NCBI GenBank assembly: GCA_902782665.1
Contig: CACZOA010000011.1
Location: 1 to 64,000 of the forward strand
Origin: an uncultured Bacteroidales bacterium
Lineage (GTDB): Bacteria > Bacteroidota > Bacteroidia > Bacteroidales > Paludibacteraceae
Direction of reading: 5' to 3'
DNA length: 64,000 nucleotides
Shown: piece by piece, positions 56,477-64,000 of the stretch
Layout of the letters: each line of letters opens with the position of its first letter
How positions within the stretch are numbered: the stretch's first letter is position 1
Made by a program: the position numbers and the translations under genes
The notes under the pieces: model-generated
Databases searched by the model: none
The model's input: the letters and a program-made list of their open reading frames with translations, nothing else
Told to the model about the DNA's origin: nothing

Positions 56477-58246
56477 TTACGCAATCACAATTCTTCTCAC
56501 AAAATCACTCTTTTTGAAAGACGGGATTGTTCCAATCACAAATTTATCCGCCTGCATATCGCATACATAATAGATATTGTCGTTGTACGAGAAGACATCA
56601 TTACGTATCGCTCCACACAAATCTGGACAAACATTCTCTTTTTCTGCCACTTCCAACGCCACTCGTCCGTCTCGCGACTGAAGTATATTGACTTTGTAAT
56701 CCATTGTTGCATAAATTGTTGCAGCAAGCATCGCACGATCCATGGCTGTCGCTTTTTTGCTGTATAGTATCTCTTCCGCAGAACGGAGTCTGCCAGATGT
56801 CAAACTGTTCTCCACTCTTTCAAATGACTCTCTGTCTTGAACAAAATCCAGTATCATCTGCATCCTCTGCACACTCGACAATCCTCGTCCGAGAGTTATA
56901 TCGTCCACAAACCAACAGATCTTTTTTATATGCAATGAATCTTTCTCTTCCTCGACGAAATATTTTGCCACATCAGCAGGATCCCCGTCGGAATTCAACA
57001 GTTCTGAATTATCATAACCAGCTGTCAATCTCAACATCTTCTCTTTGTCAAACTTCAGGCGGAGCACGCATTTGTTGTTTGCATTCAACCCTGAAATTGT
57101 CCAATCATAACTGTTGATCGCAAACAGATTGGTATTCGGATTCGGCTCGTCAGCACCGTCGTCTACTCTATTATCATCAATCTCATTCTGCTTTAGCATC
57201 GGAATCAATGGATCGTCTACTTTCCACAAATTATAATTGTATCTGCCATAAGTCTGAACGGTCAGCAAAATGCTAAAGAACTCCAGATATTTGTAGTAAA
57301 TTATAGAAAGAAAGATGCCTACTATCGAAATCACTTCAAAAATTCTTTGGGAAGTTCTCATTCCTGTGCATCTGTTGAGCAAACGTAGAAATTGTGTGAA
57401 TTTTGTATTTTTATATGTCGACTCAACATGTATTTCATACAAAATCCACCACATTAATGAGAAAACAAGTGGACTAACGACCATAATAAATGGGAAAAGT
57501 AAATCCTGATATGGGAAAATCAACACAACAGGAATATAGATGGCTGTAAAGAGCAACAATGCAAGATATACAGTCTCTTTCTTTTGTGGTTTTTTATGAG
57601 TAGCGTGCGAGCCATCTGCCACTGTTTTGTCAAGACGCTTATGTATATCGTCCTGAATAGCAAGGTATCCACACATCAGTTTACGCATCGGCAGAATCTG
57701 GTCAACTTCTTTTTTTAGCCTTCCAAACTCTCTGATTTTATAGAATTTTCTATCAGTCTTAATTTCAGACGCGTCTTCCGAGTCTTCGCCATCACTTTTT
57801 ATTAGAGCTTCCTTCTTTACCTGTTTCTCTATAACAGCTTTATAATCATGTCTGGAAAAGAATGCCAAGAACCAATTCTTTATCTCCTCAAACGATAGTT
57901 TGCCAGCACTCTCATCAACACTTTTCAATCCTACCTGACATCCTTTAAACACCTCGTCGTCTGCCACCCACGATTCTATTGGTTCAAAGTCTACAATCAC
58001 ATCATCCTCAAACTCTTTTCTGATGTGTATTTCGGCCTTATTATTTTTGATATAAATATGGCCAATCGGATTCACTGTTTCAGGGAAGAACGAATCATAA
58101 ATGGCATAGCAATCCTTCTCGCACTGTATTCGACACTTGTCGACCTGAGTTCGAGGCCAAAATTTATACCATATAAAGCAGCCCAACGCATATAGTAGCG
58201 TCGGGATCAGGATTCCACCCAATATCATCAATATTAGATCACTCAT
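56477..58246 (-). CDS. Membrane protein with degenerate transglutaminase-like domain, partner of the tubulin-like GTPase
   Basis: 589 residues. Membrane helices at about 4-28, 225-244, 249-271 and 303-328, with a soluble domain between the first two. The C-terminal ~145 residues follow the transglutaminase-like pattern: SSVQRMQMILDFVQD (457-471), AEEILYSKKATAMDRAMLAA (490-509) where relatives have GDCEDKA, GRVALEV (527-533) where they have GHVAVGV, and IYYVCDMQADKFVIGTIP (558-575) where they have a Y-x-ETT...IGxIP block. The catalytic Cys is replaced (Ala501) and the His is Arg528, so it is predicted inactive. Start overlaps the stop of the previous gene by 4 bases. Domain call is by pattern only. 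Confidence 0.65.
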   Translation of the reverse strand: MSDLILMILGGILIPTLLYALGCFIWYKFWPRTQVDKCRIQCEKDCYAIYDSFFPETVNPIGHIYIKNNKAEIHIRKEFEDDVIVDFEPIESWVADDEVFKGCQVGLKSVDESAGKLSFEEIKNWFLAFFSRHDYKAVIEKQVKKEALIKSDGEDSEDASEIKTDRKFYKIREFGRLKKEVDQILPMRKLMCGYLAIQDDIHKRLDKTVADGSHATHKKPQKKETVYLALLLFTAIYIPVVLIFPYQDLLFPFIMVVSPLVFSLMWWILYEIHVESTYKNTKFTQFLRLLNRCTGMRTSQRIFEVISIVGIFLSIIYYKYLEFFSILLTVQTYGRYNYNLWKVDDPLIPMLKQNEIDDNRVDDGADEPNPNTNLFAINSYDWTISGLNANNKCVLRLKFDKEKMLRLTAGYDNSELLNSDGDPADVAKYFVEEEKDSLHIKKICWFVDDITLGRGLSSVQRMQMILDFVQDRESFERVENSLTSGRLRSAEEILYSKKATAMDRAMLAATIYATMDYKVNILQSRDGRVALEVAEKENVCPDLCGAIRNDVFSYNDNIYYVCDMQADKFVIGTIPSFKKSDFVRRIVIA

Positions 58247-60765
58247 GCCTTGTATTCATAATTAATTCCTCCAAGTGCATCCCATGGAGTAAACTCTTCC
58301 TCTGTTGAATCTTCTATATATTGGCTAAAAATTTCATCTCTATAAGATGACGGTGCTTCTTGAATCAGATCATCTTCCTCCTCATAATTACATTTCAATC
58401 TCCAATCTATCTGATCCTCAATCTTTTGCCATGTAACAACAAACAGATATGGATCTGTATTATGCTGTTTGCAAACTAATGGATCAAGCTCATATCTGCG
58501 TGCTTCATCCATTTCAAACAATTCATGTCTGGCTTTTGCTGCAAATTCTTTATCTGCGGCACGAAGCAACATTGGCTCCTCGTCATTCGTAGTGATGAAC
58601 ATGCCATTGATTTCGGCCATTTTGTAAAGCGGACGGAATGTGATGCAGTCGCCATAATCACGATGGAAATCAGCGAAGTCTTTTGGTACATTCGGCAGAT
58701 TATCCGTGAAGCATTTCTCTATGCGACGGTGCAACATCTCGTAATCATCTGTCGCTTTTTCTGCTTCATAATCAGCGTCTTCCTTGCCAAACAAACGGTT
58801 TCCTGGAAGTGTCACAATCTCTGATATGAACTTGTCAGCAAACAATTTCTGCAGCATATCCTTGTAATCCTCTTTCGTAAGTTCTGATAGTTTACGCGTC
58901 TTACGATTCAGATAAAGCATCGGTTCAAGCAATTCTGGATTTTTTACCAATGTCTCACCTTCAAACTTTGCCTGGGTGAGATGTTGGTTGAACATTGTCT
59001 CCTTTACATCAACTGTCCACCAATCTGGTTTTTCCATTGACAATTCACGTTTCGCCTTATCAATAAGCTTCATGACATGTCGTTTCTGCTGAGAACAGAA
59101 ATCGTAAAGATCATTGTAAAGATAATCAACCTGGTCCTCATAGTCCTGACGCATATTCCTATTTACCTCAAGCAATGTGTTCGCAAGCAACATCATCTTT
59201 AATTTTTTGATATACTTACAGTTACGAACATATTTACCTATAGAGTAAAACCAAGGCGTCACAGCACCATAGATCATATAAAAAATATTAATCGCATCAT
59301 ATTCTACATATTTTCGATATTCCGGAAGATAATCTTTAATGAACTGAATAAGCAGTATGATAGTTATCACTACCGTTATACTTGTCATTAGTGTGCGCGT
59401 GAGCAATCCAAGCAATGGTGGCTCAGAATCAATCACTGCACTTATTTCCTTCACTATATCTGTATTTCTCTGTTCTGAAGATCTACCCTCGTCATATTTA
59501 AAATCCAGATAAAAATCCTGGATGAACTTTGGACATTTGACAATATCTTCCTTATCCTCTTTTGCTCGCTCCTTATACTTGCAGATCTCTTCCTGAATAG
59601 CGTCATAATACGCAAGTGTCTGAGGCAGAGTGACATCCGGATTGTATGAACTTCCAATAAAATATGAGGCAGACTCACGGATTGTGCTTGCGGCACGCTC
59701 ATAGATTGCTTCACGATTCTTCACCATCGTGTCGACGGATTTGTATCTCAACGAATACGAAATCTGCTGATGTCGTTTCACCAGTGTCGACGGAAGATGT
59801 TTCAGATATGTCTGGAAATAGTCACGAAGCAGATTGTATCTGTAGAAATCATAGATCGGATGTGGATCAGGATTCTCATAAAGTTTGTTGAAGACGTCGC
59901 ACAAATCGCAACCTGACTTTAGTTTTCCACTCACTTTCGCAACATTACGCGCTATCTCATCATCTTCTGCTATGTCATTATTAATGAAATCATAATCGAG
60001 ATCTTTGTCACGCAACATCGCTTTCAATAAATTGCGTCGGATTTCCCAAGCATACATATTATGTTGGGCATTGCCATCATAGAAGACAGATGCCGCGCCA
60101 AGTGAATAGTAGCCATTCTGTGTGGCGAGATCGTTGCCAAACACTGTGGCATCATTATCTCCACAGAAGTATACCGACAACATATATTGGAACAACAAAT
60201 CTGTCAACTCATTGGTTTGCAATTGACAATAGAATCTGTTCGCAACGTACTGATTCTCCTGATACAACACAACTCTGGCAAACTTTTTCTTTGCCATCAT
60301 AACATTGAGCTGTTCAAGAAACTTCACACATCTGCGTTTGTGCTGCAAGTCGTGAGATTGGTTGATTGACTCCTTCACACACAACATTCCCGTCTGCTCT
60401 AATCCACGATTTAGATGAGTGGAGAGAATGTCTCCGAATTTTTCATCCAGAATTGTCGGCAACAGATGGAAAATCTGCTGTGTCAGTTTTTCTTCCGCAT
60501 TACCGAGAATACAGACCTGAAGATTGATGAACGGAAATCCCTTTTCTAGGAAATAGTTCACCATACGCTGCCCTTCCCTTACCGTATAATCAATTGTCGC
60601 ATCAAAGGAATCTTTGTCTTCTATTCCTCCGACGCATCGACGATTGGCAAGGTTGGTCACACGCCAACAGTGACGCTGCTCGCGAGAAAGTTTGCGGAGA
60701 TTTTCCGCCAACCTCTTGCGAACATCTATATCCTCATTAAGATTTATTACCCAAACAGGTGTCAT
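58243..60765 (-). CDS. Large membrane-anchored partner of the tubulin-like GTPase
   Basis: 840 residues, no family recognised. The N-terminal ~450 residues are soluble and mixed alpha/beta, beginning PVWVINLNEDIDVRKRLAEN, with no P-loop or tubulin signature seen. Two membrane helices lie at about 452-476 (TRTLMTSITVVITIILLIQF) and 491-509, followed by a ~320-residue helical C-terminal domain with an acidic end. It starts in the stop codon of the GTPase gene (TGATG, one shared base) and overlaps the next gene by 4 bases, so the three are translated together. Probably links the GTPase to the inner membrane; this is inferred from order and topology. Confidence 0.7.
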   Translation of the reverse strand: MTPVWVINLNEDIDVRKRLAENLRKLSREQRHCWRVTNLANRRCVGGIEDKDSFDATIDYTVREGQRMVNYFLEKGFPFINLQVCILGNAEEKLTQQIFHLLPTILDEKFGDILSTHLNRGLEQTGMLCVKESINQSHDLQHKRRCVKFLEQLNVMMAKKKFARVVLYQENQYVANRFYCQLQTNELTDLLFQYMLSVYFCGDNDATVFGNDLATQNGYYSLGAASVFYDGNAQHNMYAWEIRRNLLKAMLRDKDLDYDFINNDIAEDDEIARNVAKVSGKLKSGCDLCDVFNKLYENPDPHPIYDFYRYNLLRDYFQTYLKHLPSTLVKRHQQISYSLRYKSVDTMVKNREAIYERAASTIRESASYFIGSSYNPDVTLPQTLAYYDAIQEEICKYKERAKEDKEDIVKCPKFIQDFYLDFKYDEGRSSEQRNTDIVKEISAVIDSEPPLLGLLTRTLMTSITVVITIILLIQFIKDYLPEYRKYVEYDAINIFYMIYGAVTPWFYSIGKYVRNCKYIKKLKMMLLANTLLEVNRNMRQDYEDQVDYLYNDLYDFCSQQKRHVMKLIDKAKRELSMEKPDWWTVDVKETMFNQHLTQAKFEGETLVKNPELLEPMLYLNRKTRKLSELTKEDYKDMLQKLFADKFISEIVTLPGNRLFGKEDADYEAEKATDDYEMLHRRIEKCFTDNLPNVPKDFADFHRDYGDCITFRPLYKMAEINGMFITTNDEEPMLLRAADKEFAAKARHELFEMDEARRYELDPLVCKQHNTDPYLFVVTWQKIEDQIDWRLKCNYEEEDDLIQEAPSSYRDEIFSQYIEDSTEEEFTPWDALGGINYEYKA

Positions 60766-63700
60766 CAGTCTTTACAAGTGAAATCCTCGAATGTCTTGAA
60801 TTTGTCGTTAAGCACACGCAACATCTCTTTCAATGTCTCCATTTCCTGGAAACTTTGTGCAGCTCGTGCATCTCTATATTTGGCATCAAGAAGTGTCTCA
60901 ACTTTCTGTTTCGCCTGATTGAAGCCTTGAACCAATATATTGTTATCCAATGCATTGACTGCCTGCATATAACGTTCAATGAAGTTGTCGTAGTGGTCGC
61001 TCAAATAACGTTTTCCAAACTCATTGCTCAACTCTGTATAGAAGAGATTGCAGTAGCATGGAGTGTATTTACGTCCCTTCTCAGCAATGTTGATCTGGAT
61101 CTTCTTGTCTCCTTGGATTTCAAGCGACAGGTCTGTAGCCCAAACTACCGAATTGCTTTTCACCTCGAATGGAGTCTGTCCATAAACACCCTCCAAATAT
61201 GATTTGTCTGGAATCACTATGAATTTCTTCATTGTAGACTCGTCATAATTACCAAGAATCATCAATTTAAGCATTGCGATAGTCGCGTTTGACGCGCCAA
61301 TTGGCAACAGACTCTTGATTTCATCCACGTCTCCACCTGTTCTTGCAAATGCCTGATGGAAATGGTAGTACTCTTTCTTATCACATTTATCGTATTCCGA
61401 CTTGATATTATGGTAAGTGCGGTAGTACTCGAAATTCATTCCTGTTTTGGCAGTTATGATGTAGAACAACTCAGAGTTGCTATGGCCAATAAACTTCTGT
61501 GAGCTTGACTCCTGGAAATTAAACACCTTCTTTGCATTGTCTCTGTTGTCTGCCACACAGAAATCTCTCTGCTCAAGCACACCGTCCATCTGGCCGATAT
61601 TGTAAGAGAAGAACAATGTTGGAGAAAGTCGTTTAGTCACCTCATCAAGCTGATCTGTAGTAAGTTCATTGATCAAATCAGGCAATTTCTTGTCGTACCA
61701 TCCATTCACAGCTGAATTTCTGCGGCACATCAATCCAAATGCCTTGTATGCGAAGTTCATAATATCGTCGATAGTCTTCTCCGCGCTACGTTCTGTGTTG
61801 ATAAAGAACTTAGATTTTAGAGTTGCCTCTCCATTCTCATCCAAAGACTCCACAATATAATTAGCGCTCTTCAAATCAGCCTCGATCTGGTTCTTCATTG
61901 TATGGAAGAAATCTGTCAAAGCCTCTGTTGTAGGCACACGTACATTGCCAGAAACAGCCTCTTTGTCTGGAGTAATCAATTTCTCATAATACTCAGCAAA
62001 CAAGTTGTCTCTCTTCCAACCGTCGCCATTAGCGAACTCGCATATATTAGGCAAGTAGACGGAAGTGATATCCTCTTTCTTTGATCTGAACGTCTCCGCA
62101 AGATTCTTGAAGCTCTGTTTTGGTCCTTTCTCGCTCAACAATGCGGTTTTTGCAGCCTCCGACAATGCTCTCAAATGACGTGCCACGACATCCAAGAAGC
62201 CATTTTCACCATAGCAGAACGACTTTATAAGTTCAAATATCTTGTTTTCAATCAGAATCTCACGTTTAAGTTCCAAGCCTCTCTTGTAGACGCTGTAAAC
62301 ATTGGCGATATCATCAGCATTATTGTTGATATGAACCATCTCAAGGAACGTTCTCTCCTCAGCCTTCTCTCTTGCTGAATCAAGATCACTCTTCTCTTTG
62401 CTGCTTGAAGATTTCTCATATTTAGTGTTCTGACGGTTCAATTCGCTCTTTGTCTGCAAATGCGACGCGAAATCAGCGATGATTGAGTCTTGAATCATAT
62501 CTTTGTCCTTGTCGTAGTGGTTGAACAAAGATGTGCACTCTTCATCCAGTCTCTCTACAGCAGCGATAGTGTTCTGAAGACCGATAGCTGTAACCATTTC
62601 CTCAACACACGACCAAATCTTTTGTTCAAGTGCCTCTTGAGTGGATTTCTGCAATGCGTCATTATCCTGGTCGTCAATCACATCAGCAAGACTCTGCGTC
62701 GTCTTCTTGACCGCTGAATTCATCTTGCCGGCATCAAACTTGTCAACTCGTTTATCGCCCTCGATTACTCCGGCACGAGATTCGGAGAAATTAGTCTTGA
62801 TTGCCTGAGTCATCTGACTGCGGATTTCGCTGAAATAGTTGTTATCTCCGTCAGGATTAAGCACATATGCATTGATAGTGTCTTTGATAAGATCCTCGAC
62901 AACCTTATTCAAATCTACTTTATTCGCCTTGTCGTTGACCGACTTTCCCAGGATACAATGTTCAAGCAAATCAGCCTGAATACGGCATTTCATATAGTCG
63001 TCAAAATCAGCACTTGGCTTCTTCAACGCTACATATCCCATCGGAAGTAAGAAATTCTTCTCTGTGCCAGGAGCCACTTCTCCATCACGGGTGTTATCCA
63101 TGAACGACTCGAAACCTCTTGCTCCAGGACCATCGTGAAGATAACAAAGAAGTTCAGCTGTATTTGAATACATACTGTCAAGATTACCGAGATTGTTTCC
63201 AGCTTCTGTCTGGAAATCAACTGGAATCAACGCTTCAAATGGTCTGTATGGTAGCGATGTATTGATACGTGAATAACGGTCGTTCAGAGCCAGACGGTGG
63301 AACAATGTGGCTGTCTCCGGTTTCTTTGACCATGCCATCTCAGCCTCCAACTCAGACATCACAGCAAAAGCATTGCGTGGATACTTCTCGTTGCGTCCAT
63401 TGTGGTCGATATACCACTGTGGCATATACATTGTAAGGATAACCTTTGGATCGGCCTCGTCGATAGTCGCCTTGTGCATCATGTTCACAAAATACAACAC
63501 ATCATTGATGATACCTGAACCAGTACCGCCCAAACTTGAACAAACGACCCAGTAGCATACTGTGTTGTTGTCGGCAGCGTTATCCTCTATCTTATTCAAA
63601 TCCTGGATATTCTTCACCAGTTTCTCACAGAACTGATCGGCAAGACGGGCGAACGCGGTACGTGATTTCAAACGGAATGCTCCAGCACCGAATTTTAAGG

Positions 63701-64000
63701 CACGATTATCCATGTGCATAGCCACTTCGTCATCACAAGCTTCAATTATTCGCTTGTTGATTTGAATCTCTTGAGCCGCTTTCGCTTTCTGATATATGAC
63801 GTATGGATTTTGTGTTCCAAGGTTTATAAGCTCGTTCGTGGAAAGCATTTTCACACGTCCGTTCTCATATTTGGTACGGTATTTCTCATTAAGGTTGTCA
63901 ATGTCTCCGGCGTCAGTGTCAATGAACATGAAACGGTAGTTGTCATTCATCACGTCAACCTTGCTACGGTTGCCACTGACATTCTGAAGGCTTTCATACA
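60765..64000 (-). CDS. FtsZ/tubulin-superfamily GTPase (Tubulin_2-like), 5' end outside window
   Basis: At least 1078 residues are visible. The frame is open through the right edge (reading YESLQNVSGNRSKVDV before the first ATG at 63953), so that ATG is internal. Counting from it: FIDTDAGD (9-16, like the T2 loop NTD of FtsZ), KFGAGAFR (87-94, like the T3 GAG loop) and SLGGTGSGI (140-148), the tubulin/FtsZ phosphate-binding signature. The T1 glycine loop must lie upstream. The remaining ~900 residues are long helical segments without recognised domains, far larger than FtsZ. It matches the large bacterial tubulin-like proteins (Pfam Tubulin_2) predicted to remodel membranes. First visible gene of a coupled operon. 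Confidence 0.85.
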   Translation of the reverse strand, partial: YESLQNVSGNRSKVDVMNDNYRFMFIDTDAGDIDNLNEKYRTKYENGRVKMLSTNELINLGTQNPYVIYQKAKAAQEIQINKRIIEACDDEVAMHMDNRALKFGAGAFRLKSRTAFARLADQFCEKLVKNIQDLNKIEDNAADNNTVCYWVVCSSLGGTGSGIINDVLYFVNMMHKATIDEADPKVILTMYMPQWYIDHNGRNEKYPRNAFAVMSELEAEMAWSKKPETATLFHRLALNDRYSRINTSLPYRPFEALIPVDFQTEAGNNLGNLDSMYSNTAELLCYLHDGPGARGFESFMDNTRDGEVAPGTEKNFLLPMGYVALKKPSADFDDYMKCRIQADLLEHCILGKSVNDKANKVDLNKVVEDLIKDTINAYVLNPDGDNNYFSEIRSQMTQAIKTNFSESRAGVIEGDKRVDKFDAGKMNSAVKKTTQSLADVIDDQDNDALQKSTQEALEQKIWSCVEEMVTAIGLQNTIAAVERLDEECTSLFNHYDKDKDMIQDSIIADFASHLQTKSELNRQNTKYEKSSSSKEKSDLDSAREKAEERTFLEMVHINNNADDIANVYSVYKRGLELKREILIENKIFELIKSFCYGENGFLDVVARHLRALSEAAKTALLSEKGPKQSFKNLAETFRSKKEDITSVYLPNICEFANGDGWKRDNLFAEYYEKLITPDKEAVSGNVRVPTTEALTDFFHTMKNQIEADLKSANYIVESLDENGEATLKSKFFINTERSAEKTIDDIMNFAYKAFGLMCRRNSAVNGWYDKKLPDLINELTTDQLDEVTKRLSPTLFFSYNIGQMDGVLEQRDFCVADNRDNAKKVFNFQESSSQKFIGHSNSELFYIITAKTGMNFEYYRTYHNIKSEYDKCDKKEYYHFHQAFARTGGDVDEIKSLLPIGASNATIAMLKLMILGNYDESTMKKFIVIPDKSYLEGVYGQTPFEVKSNSVVWATDLSLEIQGDKKIQINIAEKGRKYTPCYCNLFYTELSNEFGKRYLSDHYDNFIERYMQAVNALDNNILVQGFNQAKQKVETLLDAKYRDARAAQSFQEMETLKEMLRVLNDKFKTFEDFTCKD

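Follow-up and report, generated by a model that had tools for sequence, protein, structure and literature searches.

Do the large tubulin-like proteins that some bacteria encode beside membrane proteins shape membranes, or do they serve in biological conflict? FtsZ-like 1 (FtsZl1) proteins have counted as predicted components of an unexplained machine since 2010, when Makarova and Koonin, in the accessible part of their paper (PMC2875224), defined the group, its von Willebrand factor A (vWA) partner and its lineage-specific transmembrane (TM) partners and proposed a role in membrane remodelling. The question is raised again by the last bases of a 64,000-base stretch of DNA ("the window", bases 1-64000 of the 84,881-base contig CACZOA010000011.1) from an uncultured Bacteroidales bacterium whose genome assembly is 88% complete. 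Here an operon on the minus strand encodes, head to tail, a vWA protein (VWA), a tubulin-like protein (Z) and two membrane proteins (P840 and P589). The locus supplies a compact list of parts, a candidate output domain and an unlinked candidate partner. Segments of P840 and P589 have moved between genomes as matched blocks, a natural experiment suggesting which two proteins touch, and the choice between membrane remodelling and conflict thereby becomes testable.

Joint exchange of blocks in P840 and P589

The operon of the window was compared in segments of 300 bases with those of five relatives, giving six genomes of the genus in all. Against the relative G019, identity was 96-100% over VWA and Z and 91-99% over most of P840, but dropped to 59% at the TM segment of P840 (Block A) and to 58-73% in most of the first two thirds of P589 (Block B). 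Between the blocks, in the C-terminal part of P840, identity to G019 was 89-98%, and at the end of P589 it climbed to 97%. Elsewhere in the operon G117 is the most distant of the five relatives, yet it is the closest to the window in both blocks. Neighbour joining grouped the window with G019 (and with G048 where its sequence exists) at 100% bootstrap for VWA, Z, the N- and C-terminal parts of P840 and the C-terminal part of P589, and with G117, again at 100% bootstrap, for both blocks. Counts of site patterns (which leave out VWA because the G048 copy is cut) agree with these trees. Sites uniting the window and G117 against the four others numbered 0 in Z; 3, 82 and 1 in P840 residues 1-370, 385-570 and 590-835; and 135 and 1 in P589 residues 21-390 and 420-589. 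Genome-grouping sites in the same segments numbered 104; 47, 4 and 33; and 9 and 23.

Blocks A and B were thus exchanged together, while the flanks and the stretch between them follow the genome. Synonymous divergence (dS) from G019 was 0.98 in Block A and 2.1 in Block B, against 0.07-0.20 in the other segments, with ratios of nonsynonymous to synonymous divergence (dN/dS) of 0.24 and 0.14; the high dS of the blocks therefore indicates old alleles, either acquired by replacement or retained, and not rapid evolution of the proteins. In all six genomes Block A and Block B agree in type, being type I in the window and G117 and type II in G019, G048, G068 and G085. As the sequence separating them groups with the genome, we read the blocks as two linked segments that must match; on the evidence of only two types in six genomes, the simplest reason would be contact between P840 and P589 in their membrane parts.

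A two-block mosaic might also be produced if two strains had been mixed in the assembly of the window contig. The six loci of the genus that were identified by name all come from metagenome assemblies, and the upstream flank, where a paralog array lies, is broken as well, matching G019 in pieces of 78-97% identity. We nevertheless consider such an artefact highly improbable: neither type is confined to a single assembly (type I is in two, type II in four); the blocks of the window are only 86-90% identical to those of G117, which would make the donor a third source; and four junctions would be needed in less than 3 kb with clean flanks, the downstream 6.3 kb being 97% identical to G019.

In another genus, g4 (loci L041 and L042 compared with L106), the genome G003 is nearer to G062 in VWA, Z and a metallopeptidase-like protein described below, and nearer to G036 in P840 and P589. 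The base-level profile is not sharp there, and this pattern hints mildly that the latter two proteins may travel together.

A lineage-specific FtsZl1 operon

An earlier note on the window had described three genes with a tubulin-type signature and overlaps of 1 base (Z/P840) and 4 bases (P840/P589), and had suggested that further operon members may lie past base 64000. The three-gene set is confirmed, with Z complete at 1102 residues, and extension along the contig shows an upstream vWA gene with a membrane anchor, 66 bases from Z. The tubulin-like nature of Z also holds up, residues 6-368 matching Pfam Tubulin_2 (PF13809; E 7e-23, 81.9 bits against a cut-off of 27, profile positions 1-353 of 356), and the operon is of the FtsZl1 (Tubulin_2) kind that Makarova and Koonin described, as the note had proposed. 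Canonical FtsZ and tubulin have GTP-binding loop motifs in common with Z, but the general tubulin/FtsZ GTPase profile PF00091 scores below its cut-off in Z (25.2 bits against 33) and no FtsZ or tubulin C-terminal domain is among the Pfam matches of Z. Tubulin_2 proteins are likewise set apart from the FtsZ/tubulin family proper in the accessible text of PMC9871819.

Besides the two motifs listed in Table 1, a GxGGxG near the start of Z is kept in all 20 class-1 copies. GAGAFR is presumably the T3-like loop, a name taken from FtsZ. Compared with the GTP-loop pattern GGGTG(S/T)G of FtsZl1, the residue preceding GGTGSG is not G, the aligned Z proteins having LGGTGSG or NGGTGSG. Across 29 aligned FtsZl1 proteins drawn from several types, all three motifs can be located but vary: several class-2 proteins have GGTGCG, and four others have GxGTxG as the motif near the start. 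FtsZl1 proteins are marked by a coiled-coil middle and a helical C-terminal domain; in Z, long helices at about residues 480-620 appear only in a low-confidence model (mean predicted local distance difference test, pLDDT, 33). Besides Z, the genome has two ordinary FtsZ copies, encoded side by side at C108:3022-4654, where two frames give two FtsZ_C matches. A 9.8-kb phage record without annotation, derived from human faecal samples (MT836542.1:6931-7923), encodes a match to Z residues 1-361 with 25% identity (E 2e-4).

VWA begins with a signal-like stretch, followed by a vWA domain, a single TM segment and a tail; its metal ion-dependent adhesion site (MIDAS) motif, DxSx(S/T), reads DVSGT at residue 58. 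On the VWA_2 profile the window copy scores 24.3 bits against a cut-off of 27; the L041 copy is also below, and the L043, L046 and L047 copies are above. The L046 copy passes the TssR vWA profile too (26.8 bits against 25.7). For P840 we found two weak Pfam matches below the cut-off (E 0.063 and 0.071) and none in NCBIfam, PADLOC, PHROGs or a PDB profile search. One TM segment is called in P840 (residues 458-476) and a second is called by the script in three relatives; the membrane segment is probably a hairpin. The earlier note had seen two partner families that it did not recognise; this stands for P840, which has no match over a cut-off, and falls for P589, whose family ends in a transglutaminase-like (TGL) domain.

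Table 1 Features of the operon, in window positions except where contig positions are stated
Feature	Position	Strand	Description
VWA	contig 64140-65795	-	551 aa; entirely outside the window
Z	contig 60765-64073	-	1102 aa; start beyond 64000
GAGAFR (T3-like loop), Z residues 129-134	63672..63689	-	in 11/11 aligned Z proteins and 20/20 class-1 copies
GGTGSG tubulin signature (T4-like loop), Z residues 182-187	63513..63530	-	invariant in 11/11 aligned Z proteins and 20/20 class-1 copies
P840	58243..60765	-	840-aa membrane protein without a match above a curated cut-off
Block A, P840 residues ~418-549	59119..59512	-	holds TM segment 458-476; bounds are the first and last grouping sites
P589	56477..58246	-	membrane protein, 589 aa; N-terminal TM segment, soluble part, further TM segments, C-terminal TGL domain
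Block B, P589 residues ~31-355	57182..58154	-	soluble N-part and later TM segments, ends before TGL; bounds are the first and last clustered grouping sites
TGL domain of P589, residues ~361-589	56480..57166	-	aligned with unlinked TGL proteins over the DUF553 cut-off; this clade lacks the catalytic Cys and His

We surveyed a sample of 150 genomes of the window's taxonomic family and one of 393 genomes of its order, in which six members of the family are listed. P840 occurs in 20 of the 150 family genomes, full-length P589 in the same 20, and a strong VWA in those 20 and in G125, where Z runs off the contig end. Of 9 genomes of the window's genus, 7 have P840. In every one of the 20 genomes with the P840 family the four genes stand together in one order (the vWA gene of G048 being split over two contigs), a co-occurrence that bears out the grouping made in the earlier note. 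Tubulin_2 of any type was found in 33 of the 150 family genomes (32 over the cut-off) and in 20 of the order sample (16 over the cut-off), in which convincing class-1 matches came only from the window's own genome, one other match being tiny and local. The four-gene set is a lineage-specific variant of FtsZl1/vWA operons. What the note had called a Bacteroidales version was found only in the window's family, and FtsZl1 in Bacteroidales was already known, from Bacteroides caccae, which is named in an alignment legend of PMC2875224.

Like the FtsZl1 operons in the accessible part of PMC2875224, this one pairs a large protein with an N-terminal tubulin-like domain with an adjoining vWA gene and membrane partners. 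Unlike it, those operons come with no mention of a protease or peptidase in the main text as available, and that text showed us neither P840 nor a transglutaminase-like partner nor an exchange of blocks; P840 or P589 may already stand in its additional files 5 and 6. We recognised no experimental study of such an FtsZl1/vWA operon in a literature search that was judged from titles and had many subscription journals outside it. The kind of machine was predicted in 2010, but these partners, with the joint exchange of their membrane parts, look new.

Judged by gene maps, with no formal clustering, the FtsZl1 loci of the order fall into about four types. In class 2 (L032-L037), from the same family, a tubulin-like gene is accompanied by a TM protein that carries a cysteine protease domain of the papain type (PF00112, E 1.6e-18 for the single copy scanned; Cys, His and Asn invariant in 6/6). 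Class-2 operons resemble the window's in having a secreted or membrane gene upstream, a tubulin-like protein and a large TM partner. The upstream gene is vWA-like in L033 (26.3 bits against a cut-off of 27) and has no Pfam match in L036; the class-2 partner differs from those of the window in its length, 1139-1226 residues in five complete copies.

Transglutaminase-like and metallopeptidase-like partners

A TGL protein of 265-277 residues, with six copies and a seventh frame truncated to 186 residues in G142, is encoded away from the operon and is homologous to the C-terminus of P589 (profile E 1e-62 to 5e-77). All three copies scanned pass the DUF553 cut-off of 20.5 (21.8, 23.1 and 25.4 bits), and it is because these homologous relatives pass that we call the P589 C-terminus transglutaminase-like. 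Cys, His and Glu are present in all seven aligned unlinked copies. The copy in the window's own genome (C97:14766-15575; L086:8767-9576), a close relative of the P589 C-terminus, has an N-terminal TM segment and these three residues, and its gene is preceded by one for a leucine-rich repeat protein of the BspA type.

Counting G125, 21 genomes have the operon; with weak matches excluded, 15 of these also have the unlinked TGL protein, versus 2 of the 129 genomes that lack the operon. The operon stands without it in G003, G036, G062, G091, G128 and G095, and the unlinked protein stands without this operon in G063, which has the papain type, and in G106, as a 97-residue piece at a contig end. A 198-genome order sample gave a close match only in the window's own genome and weak matches in 21 others.

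Outside the window's clade, 13 of the 14 operon genomes carry a fifth gene, for an anchored metallopeptidase-like protein, which was not found in G142. HExxH stands at the aligned place in 13/13 of these proteins and is followed by an NW..EG motif. Known peptidases are matched only weakly: one of the three copies scanned hit Pfam BSP at E 0.0078, and a collagenase match had E 0.071.

Sensing, conflict or membrane shaping

From these sequences we tentatively propose that the operon may encode a GTP-switched inner-membrane signalling or sensor complex built on the tubulin-like GTPase. The vWA domain would lie outside the inner membrane and sense in a metal-dependent manner, held by a one-helix anchor with its tail inside the cell (the topology comes from a hydropathy script and from positive residues judged by eye). 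Cytosolic Z would bind cytosolic parts of P840 and P589 and assemble or change state with GTP, and the membrane segments of P840 and P589 would join the two proteins into a single unit, as the joint exchange of these segments suggests. Output would run through the TGL domain of P589 and, in most relatives, also through the metallopeptidase-like protein, whose predicted place is outside the membrane; for the window's clade, the activity may come from the intact unlinked TGL protein.

Several findings weigh against this sensor proposal. Among four operon copies of P589 scanned, only that of L046 passes DUF553 (24.3 bits against 20.5); L041 is below the cut-off (14.8 bits), and the window copy and L045 give no match. 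At the catalytic place the 20 operon TGL domains have Cys in four, Ser in nine and Tyr in one, and the motif is gone in the six of the window's clade (three of the four Cys-keeping genomes carry two TGL copies, one intact). Five genomes that are 97-100% complete (G003, G036, G062, G091 and G128) have no unlinked TGL protein and have Ser in the operon copy, and a TGL enzyme is therefore no general requirement. The association between the unlinked protein and the operon is confounded by kinship, the operon of the window's clade (six genomes) lacks the metallopeptidase gene, and P840 and P589 have no detectable homology to the papain-type partner. Sharp exchange is seen only in the window's genus, genera g4 and g27 showing at most mild mosaics. 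In most copies the operon TGL domain looks like a binding module or an altered enzyme.

Membrane remodelling, in which Z filaments held on the inner membrane by P840 and P589 would bend or partition it while the vWA protein links to the outer layers, follows the 2010 proposal and appears to us rather unlikely here. In the accessible part of PMC2875224 its authors could not place the T6-H7 elements of FtsZl1 with confidence, and the inference was disputed by a reviewer. Remodelling also predicts neither peptidase-like partners nor a paired exchange of blocks.

An anti-phage or other conflict system, passing from the sensing of infection to a peptidase-like output, would be analogous to the vWA/GTPase/tubulin systems of Kaur et al. 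2020 (PMC7159879). The accessible text of that paper places tubulin and vWA together in GAP1-N2 conflict systems, where tubulin is fused to a helical or coiled region and, as here, accompanied by a membrane vWA protein, and reports rare transglutaminase-like peptidases in vWA-MoxR systems. The patchy presence of the genes (any Tubulin_2 in 33 of 150 family genomes, this type in 20) and the joint exchange of divergent blocks fit such a role. We nonetheless hold it doubtful. GAP1-N2 has no match in the window's genome at its 88% completeness, the four operon proteins have no GAP1, FNIII or other GTPase family match (Pfam, E up to 1), and the same text reports GAP1-N2 tubulin systems as restricted to firmicutes and actinobacteria. 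The defence role that the earlier note had allowed finds no backing in PADLOC (E up to 1), which gave no match for three of the four proteins and one weak match for VWA (E 0.0057, 13.6 bits); the paired exchange is compatible with it. No defence gene was recognised among the neighbours looked at, not all of which were scanned, and Z had no match in plasmid records and no relative in viral contigs. The part of PMC7824862 available mentions only vWA and tubulin of jumbo phages.

The exchanged blocks imply that the membrane unit may face changing partners or inhibitors and therefore lead us to lean towards sensing or conflict and away from housekeeping membrane shaping; with modest confidence we prefer a GTP-switched membrane sensor, its variation driven by conflict, to a machine that purely shapes membranes. 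An unlikely but more specific form would be a tubulin-driven recognition machine, in which matched, anciently diverged P840/P589 specificity cassettes, kept under balancing selection by phage inhibitors, rival toxins or self-recognition, would move between lineages as pairs; a GTP-switched tubulin-like scaffold would read them out, together with an effector of transglutaminase-like or metallopeptidase type.

A third FtsZl1 type (L092-L095, L098, L102, L103, L039 and L040) often has a three-TM protein of about 200 residues upstream and a single-TM protein of 200-340 residues downstream, the latter frequently with an early Cys-containing stretch. Beyond the window lies an array of six tandem paralogs (C11:67003-72559; L002:11004-16560), and between it and the operon an L,D-transpeptidase-like gene (YkuD_2, E 1e-30; C11:66346-66975; L002:10347-10976); G019 also has a frame with the same start upstream of its operon. 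The paralogs are alike in their N-termini and differ in their C-termini, and of the two members scanned one matches TonB_C and the other is CarboxypepD_reg-like.
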